Part shown: positions 23,428 through 32,412 of the stretch, piece after piece
Position numbering within the stretch: the first letter of the stretch is position 1
Layout: each line of letters opens with the position of its first letter
Source: Clostridia bacterium
GTDB taxonomy: Bacteria > Bacillota > Clostridia > Acetivibrionales > DSM-27016
Length of the DNA stretch: 64,000 nucleotides
Direction: 5' to 3'
Assembly: GCA_026414765.1 (NCBI GenBank)
Contig: JAOAIJ010000016.1
Span: 100,786 to 164,785, forward strand
Program-made: the position numbers and the translations under genes
The notes under the pieces: generated by a model
Database searches by the model: none
Told to the model about the DNA's origin: nothing
Seen by the model: the letters and a program-made list of their open reading frames with translations, nothing else

Positions 23428-24126
23428 TTATGTTCTGAATCTATAGCCGGCACCCCATACGGTTTCAATGTACTGCGGGTTAGAGGGGGTGGATTCTATC
23501 TTTTCTCTTATCCTTGCTACGTGGACAGTAATAGTTGATGCATCTCCCAGAGCATCCAGACCCCATATTTTTTCAAACAGCTCCTCCCTGTCAAAAACCC
23601 TGTTGGGGTTTTGTACAAGGAAAAGCAGAAGTTCAAACTCTTTCTGTGCGAGGTTTACTTCCTTTCCATTTACAAAAACCCTTCTCGAATCCTTTTGTAT
23701 TTCCAGACCTCTTACGGTAAGGCTGCTGCCCTTGATGTCATTACCGCCATATTTGCTTTTCAATCTCTCATACTTCTGGATATGCGCATTTACTCTGGCA
23801 ACCAATTCGCCGGGAACAAAGGGTTTAGTAATATAGTCATCAGCTCCGAGTCCCAAGCCCTTTATTTTATCTATCTCATCCTTTTTTGCGGACACAAGCA
23901 GTATAGGGATGTCCTTGGAATCCCTGACCCTCTTTAATATCTCCAGACCATCAATCTCAGGAAGCATTATATCCAGTATTATCAGATCATATTCTTCATT
24001 TTCTATGCTTGCCAGGCCTGCAACACCATCACTGCATATGTTTACTGCAAAACCGTTGATTTCAAGGTAATCTCTCTGAAGTTCAGCTATTCCCTGATCA
24101 TCCTCAACAATCAATACTTTTTTCAT
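23428..24126 (-). CDS. OmpR-family response regulator
   Basis: 232 residues. Receiver domain with Asp8-Asp9 acidic pocket, phospho-acceptor Asp52 (LIILDIM), Thr/Ser switch (ILLVSAKK) and Lys (YITKPF), then a winged-helix domain ending VETVWGAGYRFRT. Overlaps the upstream kinase gene by 23 bases, so the two are translated together. With the ABC genes further upstream it forms a bcr-like envelope-stress or peptide-resistance module (inference). Confidence 0.95.
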   Translation of the reverse strand: MKKVLIVEDDQGIAELQRDYLEINGFAVNICSDGVAGLASIENEEYDLIILDIMLPEIDGLEILKRVRDSKDIPILLVSAKKDEIDKIKGLGLGADDYITKPFVPGELVARVNAHIQKYERLKSKYGGNDIKGSSLTVRGLEIQKDSRRVFVNGKEVNLAQKEFELLLFLVQNPNRVFDREELFEKIWGLDALGDASTITVHVARIREKIESTPSNPQYIETVWGAGYRFRT

Positions 24127-25582
24127 ATAGGTGTCTGAGCCTCCCTTTACTTATGTTTTTAAGCGATATCATTATGCTCGTACCTTCTTTCTCCTGACTG
24201 GTAGCCCATATTCTACCATTGTGGCCTTCGATTATCTGCTTTGCAATAGCAAGCCCCAGCCCGCTTCCCTTTATTTTGCTCCTTGATGAATCTGTCCTGT
24301 AGAATCTGTCAAATATATGAATAAGGTGCTCTTTATTTATTCCCGGGCCATTGTCCCGTATCTCAATTATTATATTAGAGCTGGACTCCCGAAGGATAAT
24401 CCGGATTTCTCCATCTGTCCTGTTCATATACTTCCTTGCGTTGTCAATTACATTGTCAATGACTCTTCTTACCTTTTCACGGTCGATAAGTACATATGCA
24501 GCGGGTGTAACTTTGCTTTCAAATATGAGGTTTATATTTGCTTTTTCCAGCTCCGGTCCGCATTCTAACACACAATCCCGAAAAAATCTGGAGATATCTG
24601 TTTCCTCAAAGTTAAAGGGTATTTGACTCAGATCAAGTCTGGAATACAGGAGCAGATCGTCTATCATTGAGTCTACCTGGGAAGCTTTGGAATATATGGT
24701 TTTTAGATATTTTTCAATCTTTTCGGGAGTGTTGGCAACCCCGTCAATTATACCATTCACATAACCTTTTATAGATGTTATGGGGGTTTTCAAATCATGG
24801 GAAATGCTTGAGACAAGCATTTTTCTGTTATCATCATATTTCATTTGAGTGTGTACCGATTCTTTGAGTTTTAGCCTCATCTGCTCAAATGATTTGCATA
24901 AATCCCTGATCTCTTCATCCCCATCTTCTATAATCTCATAGTTCAGGTTGCCGCAGCTTATTTCTCCGGCTGCTGTCTTTAATTTTTTCAGAGGCTTGGA
25001 AATACTTTTTGATAACATAAGTGACAATAATATATTTGTTATTACAAATGAAGTAAGAAAAACGATTACTGTGAACACTAACAGGTTATCAAACGCTATA
25101 CCCTCTTTTTTAAGTTCAGCGAGAAAAATGGCACTGCCTTGATTGCCATCCTCGAAAGCAAGGGGTACGATTTTAATTATATAGGAAATACCGTTTAAGT
25201 CGATTGAATCACTGAACAAACCGCTTTTTACCAGGGAAAGACATTTTTCTATATCAATTTTGCTGAATTCCCTTGTAGAGAACACTATCTTACCTTCTTT
25301 TAGTGTGACAATATCTGCGCCTGCACCGGTAAGCCTTGAAGCAAGGAATTGCTGAAAATCCTTTTCTGTAAGCATATCACATTTCCGCTGGACCAGTAGG
25401 CTATCTGCCTTGAACAGCTCATATCTTCGCTCGGCAAGATGTTTTACACTGCCGTAACCGATTTTGATATCCAGCAAATTTGAGCTCACAAATATATAAA
25501 CAGACGCTGCGGCTATTGTTATTAATACCGGAAGAATGAATACAGTGGCATTTGATATGACTAAACGGTTTTTTAATATCAT
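24104..25582 (-). CDS. HAMP sensor histidine kinase
   Basis: 492 residues. Two membrane helices (about 9-31 and 175-195) enclose an extracellular sensor domain; a HAMP domain (about 197-245) leads to His262 in SSISHDLKTPITS, then an ATPase domain with DNARKYM, RDNGPGI, FDRFYRTD and GSGLGLAIAK. Partner of the OmpR-type regulator that overlaps its 3' end. It starts 11 bases after the ABC permease gene, so sensor and transporter are one transcript. Confidence 0.95.
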   Translation of the reverse strand: MILKNRLVISNATVFILPVLITIAAASVYIFVSSNLLDIKIGYGSVKHLAERRYELFKADSLLVQRKCDMLTEKDFQQFLASRLTGAGADIVTLKEGKIVFSTREFSKIDIEKCLSLVKSGLFSDSIDLNGISYIIKIVPLAFEDGNQGSAIFLAELKKEGIAFDNLLVFTVIVFLTSFVITNILLSLMLSKSISKPLKKLKTAAGEISCGNLNYEIIEDGDEEIRDLCKSFEQMRLKLKESVHTQMKYDDNRKMLVSSISHDLKTPITSIKGYVNGIIDGVANTPEKIEKYLKTIYSKASQVDSMIDDLLLYSRLDLSQIPFNFEETDISRFFRDCVLECGPELEKANINLIFESKVTPAAYVLIDREKVRRVIDNVIDNARKYMNRTDGEIRIILRESSSNIIIEIRDNGPGINKEHLIHIFDRFYRTDSSRSKIKGSGLGLAIAKQIIEGHNGRIWATSQEKEGTSIMISLKNISKGRLRHLYEKSIDC

Positions 25583-27155: not shown

Positions 27156-28388
27156 TTAATCAAATACCCTTGAGAAGCCATAATTGAAACGGTCAGGAGC
27201 ACTGCCTCCAAGGTTTATTTGTGATCCGTTTGAATCAAAGTATATTTCTGAAAGGTTGTAGCCTTTTTCTTTATAAGTAAATTGCGCACTATAAGGATTT
27301 TGTATTTCGGCCGTAAAGTCGAAGGACACAGCTCTGCCGGCATATTGCTCCTTGTACTCGTCCTTGTAAACTTCATAGTATTTTCCTGTTATGCTTTTGC
27401 CATCTATACCGGATATTACTACAAATCTTTCGCCAAGCTTGACAAAGGCGTTTTCCTTTTCAACTACTATATCATTTTTGTATGTTCCGATGAATTTCTT
27501 TGATATAGTCTTTTCATCAAATGGTGTTTGAGTACTTTTTTCTACTTTCTTACCGTTTAAATCAGGTTTTTCCACTAAAGTTGAATTTATATCGGATAAC
27601 TTGAGCAGGATTTCTACTGTCAAATCATGTGAGACTGCCTGCTCATCCTTACCTGATAAAGTTCCTGTTGCAAGTATACTTTCAATAACGCCCTCTTCAC
27701 TCAGAGCTACTTTTGTATTAAGGTTTTTTATAAAAATGTCATCCTTCAACTGAGGAATAGGAGGTTCATTGTTGCGCATATTTCTACTTGATGCCTCTTG
27801 CTTAAAACCAAATGATATTACTGCGTTGATAAGAGCGGGAATCTGAGTTTCACTCAGAGAAGCTGAAAGTTCTTTGCTTCCATCCGTTTTGTCATTAATT
27901 ATTATATAGTCTTTGAGGTTGCCTATAAGTGCATCAGCGATTTTTTCAATATCTTTTGCTCTGTCATTTTCAAATGGATTTTCGAATATAGGGTGTTCAT
28001 TTTTCTTTGTAAATTCACTGATATAGTAAGTATCGCTTTCATTGTTATACCATAGTGAGCAGTACTGATCCCTGTAGAATAATGTATTAGCTTTTGAACC
28101 GCCTGCCATTTCAGTAGTTCCGGTATCCAGGGATCTTTTGTTTACATTATCATATTTTGATAAACTATTGACTGAGGCTAGGATTTTATCATTATCTTTT
28201 ATAGTAGTATAACCTTCCAAAGTAAAGTTCTGATAGCTTTTACTGCAGTTCTGGAATGTATTCTTCACTGCATCTTTGAATTCGTCATACCCCGTTCTGG
28301 CAGCTATATCGGCAAACACGGTTGTGCCGAACAACGCAACACCGACACAGAAGCTTAAGGCCATAACCAGTTTTTTGTTCTTTTTCAT
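27156..28388 (-). CDS. Secreted hypothetical protein linked to the ABC/two-component module
   Basis: 410 residues. Signal peptide MKKNKKLVMALSFCVGVALFG... with likely cleavage after VFA (near residue 26). The mature part is soluble and rich in charged and Asn residues, with no motif I can name; it has the look of clostridial envelope-stress proteins that accompany bcr-type modules. Transcribed in the same direction as the ABC genes, with only a hairpin between. Its late part YEVYKDEYKEQYAGRAVSFDF suggests a beta-rich domain. Confidence 0.6.
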   Translation of the reverse strand: MKKNKKLVMALSFCVGVALFGTTVFADIAARTGYDEFKDAVKNTFQNCSKSYQNFTLEGYTTIKDNDKILASVNSLSKYDNVNKRSLDTGTTEMAGGSKANTLFYRDQYCSLWYNNESDTYYISEFTKKNEHPIFENPFENDRAKDIEKIADALIGNLKDYIIINDKTDGSKELSASLSETQIPALINAVISFGFKQEASSRNMRNNEPPIPQLKDDIFIKNLNTKVALSEEGVIESILATGTLSGKDEQAVSHDLTVEILLKLSDINSTLVEKPDLNGKKVEKSTQTPFDEKTISKKFIGTYKNDIVVEKENAFVKLGERFVVISGIDGKSITGKYYEVYKDEYKEQYAGRAVSFDFTAEIQNPYSAQFTYKEKGYNLSEIYFDSNGSQINLGGSAPDRFNYGFSRVFD

Positions 28389-28497: not shown

Positions 28498-28533
28498 AAA
28501 AGCCTCCATACAAAAGTTTGTATGAAAGCTTTT
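28498..28533 (-). terminator. Terminator of the kinase/HAD/receiver-XRE operon
   Basis: Stem CATACAAA / TTTGTATG with outer AAAAGC / GCTTTT pairing; on the minus strand it is followed by TTTTATTTTTG. It lies 23 bases past the kinase stop. Confidence 0.85.
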
Positions 28534-28555: not shown

Positions 28556-30541
28556 TTATTCTGAGACAGTATCCTTTACCGGTATTTTTACAAAGAAGGT
28601 TGTTCCTTTGTCTTCTTTTGTTTCAAACCACATATCACCCATGAAGCTTGATTTTATTACCGAGTAAGATATATAAAGGCCGAAACCTGTGCCATTTTTA
28701 CCTTTATCGGTTATCATTTCCTTAAAGAGCTTTTGTTGGATTTTTTTTGATATTCCTTTTCCGTAGTCTTTTACACTGAAAATAACGCATTCTCCTTCTT
28801 GGACGGCTTTTAGTTCAATAGTGCCTCCGTTCCCGTTGTAAGCATGTATTGCGTTTACTATCAGATTATATATTACTTGCAGTAGTGAATTTAGCTGGCC
28901 GGTTATTTTTATATTGGTTGCGGCTTCTGTTTTCAGCCTGCAATTATTACGGTTTACCTCATGCTCTGAAAGAACCTTGATATTTTCAAACAGTTCAGGT
29001 ACTGTAAAGGCTCCGCTAAAATCTGTATTGAGGACTACTGCCTGATTCTTTAAAGTATCTATTATTTTGTTTACATACTCCAGTGTCGGGGTTAATCCCT
29101 CTACGCAACTGCGCATTTCAGATGCCATTTCGCGATGGTCCTGGCTGGTATAGCTCTGGTCATCTATTGCTCGTGAATATTCGTGAACGAGTCCCAAAAG
29201 TTCATCTTTTACTAGTGACACTGTCATAACAGGTGTTTTTAGATTATGGGCAATTCCTCCTATCAAAACCCGCATTGCCGATAACTTCGTAGTTTCCATA
29301 AGGTGGGCGTTTATCATTTCCTTTTTCGCGGCTTGAGAAGATTTCATTGCTAATACAACAGATTGGGCAAACATCAGCGTCGCAAGCCCCACAGGCGACA
29401 GAACTATCGTATATATTATTTGGACGGAGCGCAGTACGTCATTCAGAATAAGCAGCAGGAAAATTGTTGTGCCCAGCAGAAGTATTGATGCGCCTTCACG
29501 CTTGTGGAGGTGTGCCAGAATGAGAATATATATTGTGTATACCCCTTGAGCAACACCAGCAAACAGGTAAAAATTGATGAAAGCTACAGGGGTTGCAGCT
29601 CCGATACAAAGCATTAGCAGAGCGGAAGCCAGGTTGAAAATTTGAAAAAGCCTAATAGCCTTTTTGGGAAATTCTTTTGGGAAAAGAGTATAGAAAAATG
29701 TCACAACAGCTGTAGCAGCCACCCCATAAAGCGTATAATTTATTTTGAATAAAACAATTTCGCTTATAATACCTGTTTGCAGCAGTACGGCTTCTCCTGT
29801 TGTAATTATCCTTATTTCCATTATTAAGCATGTTATTGCAAGCAATAATGCGGATATTTCCTTCCTATGAAAAATATAAACGATGAAGTGATAGAATCCC
29901 ATTATGAAGATTAATCCTAATAGGAACATATCCAGAATTAATTGATTATCTTCTGCCTCTAGGATCTTTTTCTCATCTCCCAAATACATTGATGCAGTAA
30001 ATCCGCCATTTTTATCTGAGAAGTTTGACACCTGCATAACTATCTCAAGTATGTTGCTGTCATTATAAAAGACAAAAGTTAACGGAGCAGACAGGTCCTT
30101 GCTGCCGGCAGAATCTTTTGATACTTCTCCACGTGAGGCAAGCATTTTTCCGTTAATCCATAGCTTATAAGCGCTTAAAACCCTTGGGAGTCTCATAGCC
30201 AATAGGCTATTCTCATTCTTTGTCTTAATAACAAGTTTATAGGTAGCACAACCAAAGGATGGATAATTGGATTTGTTCCAATATCCCGGAATATTCAGGA
30301 ATTGTTTTTGACCGGAAAGTAGGGAATCAGAGTCAATATCGGCAGGCTCCAAAAGCTTGTTCCAGTAAAACTCCCATTCTCCGTCAAGCTTGACAGGGGC
30401 ACTTTCTTTGAAGTCCAATCCGCTTAAGTCAATAAATCCTTTTGATATTTTTGGGGAGTCATAATAAGAATATGAACAAGATATACTGATGAAAACTAAG
30501 AAAACTAAAAAAATAACTATAAATGCATAATATTTTTTCAT
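28556..30541 (-). CDS. 7TM-DISM sensor histidine kinase
   Basis: 661 residues. An N-terminal signal/anchor is followed by an extracellular jelly-roll domain with DGEWEFYWNKLLEP, the hallmark of 7TM-DISM receptors (carbohydrate-binding-like fold), then seven membrane helices (about 205-400), a kinase core with His432 in GGIAHNLKTPVM (atypical H box) and an ATPase domain with NLIVNAIHAY, VKDYGKGI and GTGFGLYISYS. Last gene of an apparent minus operon after the receiver-XRE and HAD genes, so the receiver-XRE protein is the likely partner (inference). Confidence 0.9.
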   Translation of the reverse strand: MKKYYAFIVIFLVFLVFISISCSYSYYDSPKISKGFIDLSGLDFKESAPVKLDGEWEFYWNKLLEPADIDSDSLLSGQKQFLNIPGYWNKSNYPSFGCATYKLVIKTKNENSLLAMRLPRVLSAYKLWINGKMLASRGEVSKDSAGSKDLSAPLTFVFYNDSNILEIVMQVSNFSDKNGGFTASMYLGDEKKILEAEDNQLILDMFLLGLIFIMGFYHFIVYIFHRKEISALLLAITCLIMEIRIITTGEAVLLQTGIISEIVLFKINYTLYGVAATAVVTFFYTLFPKEFPKKAIRLFQIFNLASALLMLCIGAATPVAFINFYLFAGVAQGVYTIYILILAHLHKREGASILLLGTTIFLLLILNDVLRSVQIIYTIVLSPVGLATLMFAQSVVLAMKSSQAAKKEMINAHLMETTKLSAMRVLIGGIAHNLKTPVMTVSLVKDELLGLVHEYSRAIDDQSYTSQDHREMASEMRSCVEGLTPTLEYVNKIIDTLKNQAVVLNTDFSGAFTVPELFENIKVLSEHEVNRNNCRLKTEAATNIKITGQLNSLLQVIYNLIVNAIHAYNGNGGTIELKAVQEGECVIFSVKDYGKGISKKIQQKLFKEMITDKGKNGTGFGLYISYSVIKSSFMGDMWFETKEDKGTTFFVKIPVKDTVSE

Positions 30542-30592
30542 AAATAATCATGCTCCTTTTTCGTGTTGTAATATACTTAACAAGTTGTAGTT

Positions 30593-31240
30593 TTATGTAT
30601 GATCCGGGATTTGCAAGTTGCATGCTATACGTAGTATTTCAGCCGGGTGGTCAGCTATAAAATCCGGATTTCCGCCAGATAAAAGCTCCCTTGAGTCATA
30701 ACCCCATGTTACCGCTATTATTGGGACTCCTGATTTTTTGCAGGATATTATGTCCCTTATTTCATCTCCAACATAAAAAGTCTCTTCTTTTTCCAATCTG
30801 TATTTTTTCATAAAACTGTTTATTGCGTAATGTTTCCCAAAAACGTTTTTGGCAGAATAAATGTTTTCAAACATATCCATGTCATTTTTTTTAAGAAATT
30901 CTCTTATGGTACCTGCTGCATTTGATGAAATGATTCCAAGCCTGAAACCTTTTGCTTTGAGTGCATATAGTAAATCTACAATTCCATCGGCAGTATGAAG
31001 TGAGTGTATATGTTTTCTGTACTTATTCAATACTTCAAAAAGGAGGGAGGGTATTTTGTGAATAGGAATGTCAAGAAGCTTGATTCTTTCTGATATAGGA
31101 AGGTTAATTAAGTATTCGATATCCGATGATGACAGCTTTTTGTAATTATTCTCGTAGGCTAATTCATTGTATAAATGGATAACTAAATCTTTTGAGTTGA
31201 CAATAGTACCATCAAAATCAAATATTAAGTTTTTTATCAT
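30593..31240 (-). CDS. HAD-superfamily phosphatase, phosphoglycolate-phosphatase type
   Basis: 215 residues. Motif I FDFDGTIVNS with nucleophile Asp9, motif II LGIISSN, a conserved Lys in KNVFGKHYAI, and motif III YVGDEIRDI are all present, with a helical cap between motifs I and II. Members hydrolyse small phosphate esters; the substrate is unknown. Ribosome site GCAGGAG. Lies 23 bases after the receiver-XRE gene and 51 before the kinase gene: its place inside a signalling operon is notable. Confidence 0.87.
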   Translation of the reverse strand: MIKNLIFDFDGTIVNSKDLVIHLYNELAYENNYKKLSSSDIEYLINLPISERIKLLDIPIHKIPSLLFEVLNKYRKHIHSLHTADGIVDLLYALKAKGFRLGIISSNAAGTIREFLKKNDMDMFENIYSAKNVFGKHYAINSFMKKYRLEKEETFYVGDEIRDIISCKKSGVPIIAVTWGYDSRELLSGGNPDFIADHPAEILRIACNLQIPDHT

Positions 31241-31263
31241 TATATAAACTCCTGCGCGACACC

Positions 31264-31893
31264 TTAATCTGATAATAGAGAATCAAAAGATATATTAAAA
31301 TATTTCACCAGCATTCTCAATTTTTCGAAATCAGGCCGGGCAGTTCCTGTTTCATATGCACCTATGGTACCTTTAGCCACACCCAGGTATTGGGCTACAT
31401 CATCCCGCGTTTTCCCGTTAAGCTCTCTTAAATAACGCAGCCGCTCCTCAAAAGTTAAACCATTTTTTATATTATTTTTTATTATGCTTTTTGCACCGAT
31501 TTCTATTTTCATCAGTAAATCCTTCAAATCGGCACTTTTTTCAGAATATGAATCAATATCATAATTGCCAAGAGCGATTTCGTAGGGCATATTGGTTACA
31601 AAGCCTGTCAGCAAAATAGTGTATACCTTTGAAAACTGCCTTATTTTATTTACTACATCTATTCCTGTACAACCAATTAAGAAATAATCCACAATAAATA
31701 AATCAATTTTCTGATTGCTGATTATGTTGACCGCTTCGCTAGGATTATCAGTAGTAATGCAGCTATATCCTACGGCCTCGATTTTTTTCTTTAAAGCATC
31801 GAGAATGGTACGGTCATCATCCAGCAGCAAAATATGTATACTATTCTTTGTTTTTATGTCTATATTTGTTTCTATAAAGTACTTTTTTCTCAT
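31264..31893 (-). CDS. Response regulator with C-terminal XRE helix-turn-helix
   Basis: 209 residues from the ATG at 31893 (MRKKYFIETN); the 42-codon extension to 32019 is hydrophobic nonsense across the promoter. Receiver domain with Asp25-Asp27 pocket, phospho-acceptor Asp69 (LFIVDYF), Thr switch (ILLTG) and Lys (SEKSAD). Residues 145-209 are an XRE/Cro domain (VAQYLGVAKGTIGAYETGTARPD). This combination is uncommon; OmpR, NarL and NtrC outputs dominate. Four ATGTAAA boxes lie upstream. Confidence 0.85.
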   Translation of the reverse strand: MRKKYFIETNIDIKTKNSIHILLLDDDRTILDALKKKIEAVGYSCITTDNPSEAVNIISNQKIDLFIVDYFLIGCTGIDVVNKIRQFSKVYTILLTGFVTNMPYEIALGNYDIDSYSEKSADLKDLLMKIEIGAKSIIKNNIKNGLTFEERLRYLRELNGKTRDDVAQYLGVAKGTIGAYETGTARPDFEKLRMLVKYFNISFDSLLSD

Positions 31894-31905
31894 TTTTGTA
31901 TACCT

Positions 31906-32024
31906 ATTATACCATATATTAGCATAAAATCTATAAATTAATAGTAACACGCATGTAAATGTAAAGTCAATACAGTAATGTAAATTGACACCAATGAGTT
32001 TAGGTGCTATTATATACATGTAAA
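31906..32024 (-). promoter_or_regulatory. Promoter and repeated ATGTAAA boxes before the receiver-XRE gene
   Basis: On the minus strand an extended -10 TGGTATAAT ends at 31906, placing the start site about 6 bases before the ATG at 31893, a very short leader. ATGTAAA (plus-strand reading) occurs at 31953-31959, 31959-31965, 31978-31984 and 32018-32024. The boxes are candidates for autoregulation or for control of the divergent gene at 32158. Confidence 0.5.
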
Positions 32025-32157
32025 AATTAACAAAAGTCTATTTAAAATAGATTAGTTGCTATATATAGTAGATGGTGGCACGATAAAGGTTAATAAAATG
32101 TATGTGGAAATATTTCAAACCTTTGGAAATAGGTTGTAGATTTATGGAGGATACCCC

Positions 32158-32412
32158 ATGACTGACGAAACACTATTTGAGCTTCAACGTAAAGTCGGAA
32201 GGGCAGAAACAATAAAACGACAGATTAATGATTTAAAGATGATTCTGGAGAGGGGCGACCAAGTCAAGATCTGGGGTTTATGCCTTTATTATGATGAGGA
32301 ATGTAATGACAGCCAATACATGGATCTTCCGAATGAGGGCATAAAAGAATTCGTTGATAAATTTGTAAAAAAGCAAATTGCAATTCTTGAAAAGGAATTC
32401 AAAACACTTTAA
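32158..32412 (+). CDS. Small hypothetical cytoplasmic protein
   Basis: 84 residues, strong GGAGG site. Mostly charged helices: residues 5-30 and 60-82 look like coiled-coil-forming segments around a central CLYYDEECND loop. No family recognised. Divergent from the receiver-XRE gene and may share its control region. Confidence 0.65.
   Translation: MTDETLFELQRKVGRAETIKRQINDLKMILERGDQVKIWGLCLYYDEECNDSQYMDLPNEGIKEFVDKFVKKQIAILEKEFKTL

Follow-up and report, generated by a model that had tools for sequence, protein, structure and literature searches.

Which genes of a three-gene locus in a member of the Clostridia belong to one signalling system, and what might this system sense and control? The locus lies in a 64,000-nucleotide stretch of DNA (contig JAOAIJ010000016.1, positions 100,786 to 164,785; hereafter the window means this whole stretch) from a Clostridia bacterium of the order Acetivibrionales. 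On its minus strand, in the order of transcription, it encodes a response regulator that couples a receiver to an XRE-type DNA-binding domain (31264..31893, 209 aa), a HAD_2 phosphatase-like protein (30593..31240, 215 aa) and a sensor kinase with a 7TM-DISM head (28556..30541, 661 aa). All three genes are co-directional, and their open reading frames (ORFs) and Pfam domains were found as the first-pass annotation of this DNA had described them. We consider it probable that the locus encodes a two-component system in which a recurring kinase core/receiver module is fitted with a sugar-type head and with an XRE output acting on a palindromic operator, the HAD gene being a passenger.

Other genomes conserve the pairing of kinase and regulator. 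Of 14 receiver-XRE loci read elsewhere, 13 encode a kinase of this core on the same strand, and 12 of these 13 kinases are directly adjacent to the receiver-XRE gene, at spacings from an 8 bp overlap to an 81 bp gap; in the remaining one (L041) the distance is 1194 bp and one inserted gene lies between. The sole exception (L032) has no such kinase within 14.5 kb. The 13 paired loci include near-copies from one genus (L035, L037, L039, L040, L042). Pairwise distances between receivers and between cores follow each other closely over 29 pairs (Mantel r 0.91, a value reached in 0 of 2000 permutations). Within the window, the two-component system that follows downstream (23428-25582) comprises a regulator and a kinase of its own, so that no other dedicated regulator is seen near the 7TM-DISM kinase; a separate dedicated regulator had been named among the findings that would speak against the three-gene proposal. 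These comparisons support the kinase and the receiver-XRE regulator as a conserved signalling pair. The co-conservation expected of all three genes thus stands for two of them and fails for the trio, as the HAD gene is unlinked.

The HAD protein itself gives a Pfam HAD_2 match of 6.1e-40 (137.7 bits, cut-off 23.8), and its gene is likely to be carried on the same transcript as regulator and kinase. With gaps of 23 bp to the regulator and 51 bp to the kinase, all genes co-directional and a single hairpin downstream, the arrangement would suit a functional three-gene operon in which the phosphatase is a working part, for example on a sugar phosphate derived from the sensed ligand. The distribution of its homologues argues otherwise. 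They occur in at least 26 other genomes of the order (41-52% identity, E 1.2e-49 or better), among neighbours that vary between genera, and the kinase H box was found at 0 of the 26 loci (2.6-3.6 kb read per locus). In the five genomes that have both genes (G005, G020, G026, G028, G031), the receiver-XRE gene and the HAD homologue lie at separate places, and no HAD match is seen at any of the 14 other receiver-XRE loci; the sole HAD-like neighbour of a receiver of the same subfamily is weak (34 bits) and belongs to an HD-GYP-type locus without a kinase (L163). With 0 of 26 homologues linked to kinase or regulator, the HAD protein was discarded as a part of the system, and the three-gene functional operon is in our view very unlikely. 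The suggestion in the first-pass annotation that control at this locus includes a phosphatase is therefore not upheld: judged by gene neighbourhoods, the HAD phosphatase looks like a local passenger on the transcript, outside the signalling mechanism.

The regulator matches Response_reg (4e-14, 53.2 bits, cut-off 30.2) and, at residues 152-205, HTH_3 (1.2e-12, 48.1 bits, cut-off 23). Its mechanical ORF extends to 32019, and the start at 31893 is a better fit to most homologues. The receiver residues D25, D26, D69, T96 and K119 are invariant across 11 aligned sequences including that of the window, and for this reason Asp69, already proposed as the phospho-acceptor, is the right one. A response regulator with an XRE output had been called rare; it is uncommon and also recurrent, being present in at least 13 of 58 genomes of the order including the window genome (full-length match, E 1e-18 or better), a lower bound set by the number of first-look candidates scored per genome (53 for the regulator, 20 for the kinase). 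A class-level scan of 391 genomes added one further receiver-XRE gene, in G219, and a genome-collection scan with the regulator gave four loci, every match lying over the receiver range.

The kinase consists of a GH2_N-like outer domain (residues ~30-188), a 7TMR-DISM_7TM region (202-398), a dimerization and histidine phosphotransfer (DHp) domain and a HATPase_c domain (551-656; 4.2e-20, 72.7 bits, cut-off 26.4). Its H box, LIGGIAHNLKTPVM (GGIAHNLKTP), holds the phospho-acceptor His432, followed by Asn433 in place of an acid. Pfam HisKA (PF00512) gives no match to E 0.1, and an HN-type sibling kinase in the same genome passes just over the HisKA cut-off (27.2 vs 26.9 bits). By sequence, matches to solved structures are confined to the core. 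In a structure model for which 54 of 62 prepared rows were used, the predicted DHp-catalytic core resembles ZraS (Foldseek 1.4e-15), and the kinase matches the AtoS model at 2.3e-20, far below that model's cut-off. Compared to the HisKA kinases ZraS, AtoS and HK853, the likeness is thus one of the core, whereas their conserved acid after the phospho-His is Asn in the window kinase and Pfam HisKA misses it.

This H box had been taken for an oddity of the window kinase, and is instead the signature (GGIAHNxKTP type) of a large family. Among 59 aligned cores, 46 of them from the order and class and 13 from phylum-wide loci, the residue following the phospho-His (H+1) is Asn in 55 (53 of the 56 in which the His is kept), Glu in three and Ser in one, the three Glu cores being of SAGIAHEMNTP type and forming an outgroup. 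At H+4, 58 of the 59 cores have Thr or Ser, and the N, G1, F and G2 boxes are present in the window kinase and in nearly all of the cores. In contrast, 29 of the 30 other HisKA proteins read in the window genome have Glu or Asp at H+1 and one has Gln (34 were found, the HN-type sibling on contig C52 being among the four unread).

The functional weight of these positions comes from a study of H+1 and H+4 in HisKA enzymes by Willett and Kirby. In CrdS, the acid after the phospho-His is reported to be required for kinase and dispensable for phosphatase activity; changes of H+1 to A, D, G or Q are all kinase-inactive, alanine at H+1 of three further HisKA enzymes gave a similar result, and Thr or Asn at H+4 is required for phosphatase activity (PMC3510030). 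Among the changes described there for these four enzymes, Asn at H+1 is absent (PMC3510030). Because Asn stands at H+1 while the H+4 residue and the ATP boxes are kept, the HN family may be either biased towards phosphatase activity or autophosphorylating by another route. It could then be argued, as the acid needed for autophosphorylation is replaced, that the pair runs chiefly backwards, with the kinase-like protein as a ligand-controlled phosphatase of a regulator that is charged from another source. Such a role would agree with the family-wide combination of Asn at H+1 and Thr or Ser at H+4, with the acid retained in nearly all other HisKA proteins read in the genome, and with the four enzymes in which kinase activity was lost and phosphatase activity retained when the acid was changed (PMC3510030). 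We regard it as quite unlikely, given that the cores preserve ATP-binding motifs for which a pure phosphatase would have less need, that the His is retained in 56 of the 59 cores, and that Asn itself is not among the changes described (PMC3510030). A wider proposal may be made for the family: an Asn-H+1 subfamily, found in the class and beyond it in the phylum, would share one receiver subfamily with the output swapped between HD-GYP and XRE, and would consist mainly of ligand-gated phosphatases or use an undescribed, acid-independent autophosphorylation; we give this a small chance.

A separate observation on the core concerns family f2, in which HN kinases occur in tandem. In three of the five pairs read (L140, L144, L147, L148, L149), the phospho-His of the second copy is replaced by Val, Tyr or Gln (L140 6487-8304, L147 5273-7093, L149 5965-7869), and the neighbouring copy keeps it, which suggests pairs of a catalytic kinase and a putative pseudokinase.

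The same core is also found beside a second kind of regulator. The neighbour of 46 family kinases is an XRE regulator in 14 cases and an HD-GYP regulator in 16, with neither adjacent in 16, and the XRE- and HD-GYP-output regulators form one receiver subfamily. HD-GYP proteins are described as cyclic di-GMP (c-di-GMP) phosphodiesterases (PMC4212101), and the HD-GYP regulators of the HN family are presumed to be such enzymes. The type present in the window genome carries DUF3369 between the receiver and the HD domain, and a shorter form of ~356 residues has no room for it. When 20 loci were picked by the HD-GYP-type regulator alone, six had an adjacent family kinase on the same strand and one (L165) a divergent one. 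Among 19 DUF3369 places in 299 phylum-wide genomes (1.5 kb flanks), an HN-type kinase was found at ten, a partial one at one, an HE-type kinase at three and none at five. A second DUF3369 in the window genome (L216, G000:C9:33149-33628), in a 970 aa frame, is the best DUF3369 match of the phylum scan. The HN-type kinase/receiver-HD-GYP system (usually with DUF3369) is like the window pair in core, H box, receiver subfamily and the neighbouring position of its genes; it differs in its output, presumed to be a c-di-GMP phosphodiesterase where that of the window is DNA-binding, and in its heads, which were read as HisKA_7TM-like, HAMP-type or unassigned. Literature searches found no paper on this system, nor on the pairing of an HN-type kinase with a receiver-XRE regulator.

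The existence of this sister type raises the question of whether the window kinase belongs with the HD-GYP type and is next to the XRE regulator only by chance, with the DUF3369-HD-GYP regulator on contig C52 as its real partner. The window core is 41-47% identical to HD-GYP-paired kinases and 30-37% to XRE-paired ones, the XRE kinase clade excludes the window kinase, and the regulator at C52:117325 has no adjacent kinase. However, contig C52 also encodes an HN-type kinase ~9.5 kb from that regulator, which makes it a nearer candidate partner. A single clade of the window kinase with the XRE-paired kinases is moreover not rejected by approximately unbiased (AU) tests, either with all rows (p 0.275) or without four long rows, three of them XRE-paired (p 0.435), and in the receiver tree the XRE-output receivers, that of the window included, lie on one side (90/100, not starred). 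We therefore judge a chance neighbourhood unlikely. In the receiver tree without eight HD-GYP regulators, the window receiver sits on a very long branch. A separate origin of the window pair is not claimed, as the kinase lies outside the clade and yet the AU tests keep one clade. The simplest reading of the trees would be one switch between HD-GYP and XRE outputs, after which the window pair diverged fast and acquired a new head.

That head is assigned by Pfam 7TMR-DISM_7TM (7.6e-14, 52.6 bits, cut-off 29), and an AF2 model places helices at the 7TM part with low confidence. Neither 7TMR-DISMED1 nor 7TMR-DISMED2 of Pfam matches the window kinase. The outer domain (29966..30472, minus strand, 169 aa) was modelled alone, with 16 of 22 prepared rows used, at a pLDDT (predicted local distance difference test) of 88.8. 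In fold the model resembles the N-terminal domain of GH2 beta-glucuronidases (Foldseek 6.3e-7; in a second look at the Foldseek matches, VIA Z 13.4 to 6cxs_A, rmsd 3.3, 135 aligned), and Pfam GH2_N reaches 22.4 bits on the domain, below its cut-off of 28. The outer domain is accordingly predicted to be a GH2-type sugar-binding jelly roll. Of the earlier proposal of a carbohydrate-type head with sugar-responsive control, the head is borne out by this predicted fold, the involvement of the phosphatase is not, and sugar sensing by the window kinase is plausible.

RetS and LadS of Pseudomonas are 7TM-DISM kinases, and together with NicD they resemble the window kinase in bearing an extracytoplasmic domain on a 7TM-DISM bundle; they differ in their outputs, which are GGDEF or hybrid kinase, and the window kinase lacks a Pfam 7TMR-DISMED2 match. 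The outer domain of NicD is said to bind carbohydrate, and in the account given the response to glucose-6-phosphate was not lost when this domain was removed (PMC8544897).

Among the XRE-paired relatives, ten kinases have a HisKA_7TM head (six by Pfam, four by similarity), with PAS weakly indicated; L033 has a different membrane head and a PAS match, L043 is soluble with no Pfam head, and L154 is unassigned. The ten HisKA_7TM-headed systems (L034-L042, L044) share the core and the receiver-XRE architecture of the window, and the regulator gene comes first in all of them; they differ in the head, in having no HAD gene and in carrying GTCAT-N5-ATGAC or near-copies upstream. Twenty other homologues of the 7TM-DISM head were fetched from the order, out of a larger set of head matches; ten have an HE or HD H box and ten lack the searched pattern, so that the HN core is found in 0 of these 20. 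Nor does any other HN core among the 46 bear a detectable DISM head. Among the sequences read, 7TM-DISM head and HN core are joined only in the window. It may be added that lipobox-like motifs occur at the start of several of 15 relatives of the head (LSGC in two, FSGC in two), with an imperfect SISC near the corresponding place in the window (30446-30541, minus strand).

Upstream regions were compared at 11 other loci, those with the kinase gene first (L033, L043, L154) being left out. The palindrome GTCAT-N5-ATGAC, with nine or ten of ten positions, precedes the regulator in nine of the 11 (families f1, f4 and f5). Weaker copies are found in L034 (f15, short upstream region; 8/10, P 0.07, optimistic like all these P values as the palindrome was spotted in the sequences on which it was tested and five of them are near-copies) and in L032 (6/10). 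The DNA-reading residues of the HTH_3 helix are known from the fold. The recognition helix reads KGTIGAYETG in the window and RTAIANWETN in the nearest group, and because of this difference the operator of the window regulator is expected to differ from GTCAT-N5-ATGAC. Two candidates in the window were rejected: ATGTAAA, present four times at 31953-32018, as 87 of 300 shuffles hold some 7-mer at least four times, and GTCAAT-N12-ATTGAC, which coincides with two back-to-back -35-like boxes. Across eight genomes, exact palindromes number 3-10 each, 45 in total vs 58 of the reversed control, so that a broad regulon is unsupported; G020 has ten exact sites vs two in the control. Some of the sites fetched (two of five in G018 and three of seven in G024, those with A/T-rich spacers) are orthologous in the two genomes (L211 1776, L212 1778, L213 1793, L214 1820) and lie upstream of clusters for phage-tail-collar-domain (PF07484) proteins, whereas the fifth, L215, has no collar gene. 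This hints at the collar-protein clusters as a possible receiver-XRE regulon in that genus.

Put together, the external part of the kinase, a 7TM-DISM head with a GH2-type jelly roll, would sense a ligand outside the membrane, likely a glycan or sugar to judge from the predicted fold. The core would determine whether receiver Asp69 is phosphorylated, as the intact motifs and the conserved adjacency suggest, and the XRE domain would bind a palindromic operator, with the promoter region of its own gene probably among its sites, by analogy with the operator-like palindromes of relatives. The HAD phosphatase would ride on the transcript as a passenger with no role in signalling. Several observations weigh against this mechanism. 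The 13 other XRE-paired kinases form a clade without the window kinase (trees: 100/99; 99/99), the Mantel correlation is explicable by shared species history alone, and in the window 722 bp, the HAD gene included, separate the regulator from the kinase. The kinase model is poor in its 7TM part, the best palindrome copy upstream of the window regulator (8/10, P 0.1, again an optimistic value) is not significant, and the replacement of the catalytic acid by Asn makes autokinase activity doubtful.

The signals flanking the locus fit such a transcript in part. A terminator-like hairpin (28498..28533, minus strand) with 16 pairs, four of them G-C, lies 22 bp past the kinase stop; terminator-like sites in the region number four vs 2.6 (sd 2.1) in shuffles, and the hairpin is a plausible terminator. 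The tight co-directional spacing and the hairpin favour the earlier call of one likely transcript, and the good terminator of that call is a plausible one. A promoter-like site 5' of the regulator (31941..31970, minus strand; TTGACT, 18 nt, TACTAT) is a consensus match only, 23 such sites being found vs 17.9 in shuffles. A divergent ORF of 84 aa (32158..32412, plus strand) has no match over a Pfam cut-off and none in NCBIfam, and 31894-32157 may be a regulatory region shared by it and the regulator. Downstream of this hairpin, a 410 aa protein (27156-28388, minus strand) matches nothing in Pfam or NCBIfam, and its N-terminus looks signal-like by eye; it adjoins genes that read like those of an ABC transporter and of a two-component system belonging to it. 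Neighbours of the relatives are of other kinds. In the f4 genus (L035 7715-8596 and 4448-4846), a divergent pair of small-protein genes, one matching PixA inclusion-body protein, lies beside the receiver-XRE operon, and a fascin-like gene lies 3' of the kinase. At L043 (5054-7410), the regulator and a short HN-type kinase of 407 aa, in which Pfam finds no head domain, are 3' of a thioesterase gene.

For the window organism, the operon reading is corrected to a sugar-type sensor with an XRE regulator and the phosphatase as a bystander. The logic is that of an ordinary two-component system, and what is uncommon is the variant, in which a recurring module has its head, core and output newly combined. 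The HN kinase family as a whole is of more interest than the window locus alone. One kinase-receiver module is retained and both its ends are exchanged, the heads among 7TM-DISM, HisKA_7TM, HAMP-type and soluble forms and the outputs between HD-GYP and XRE. Such exchanges may serve as natural chimeras for studies of specificity, and the lack of the catalytic acid across the family would allow the accepted HisKA mechanism to be tested directly in natural enzymes.

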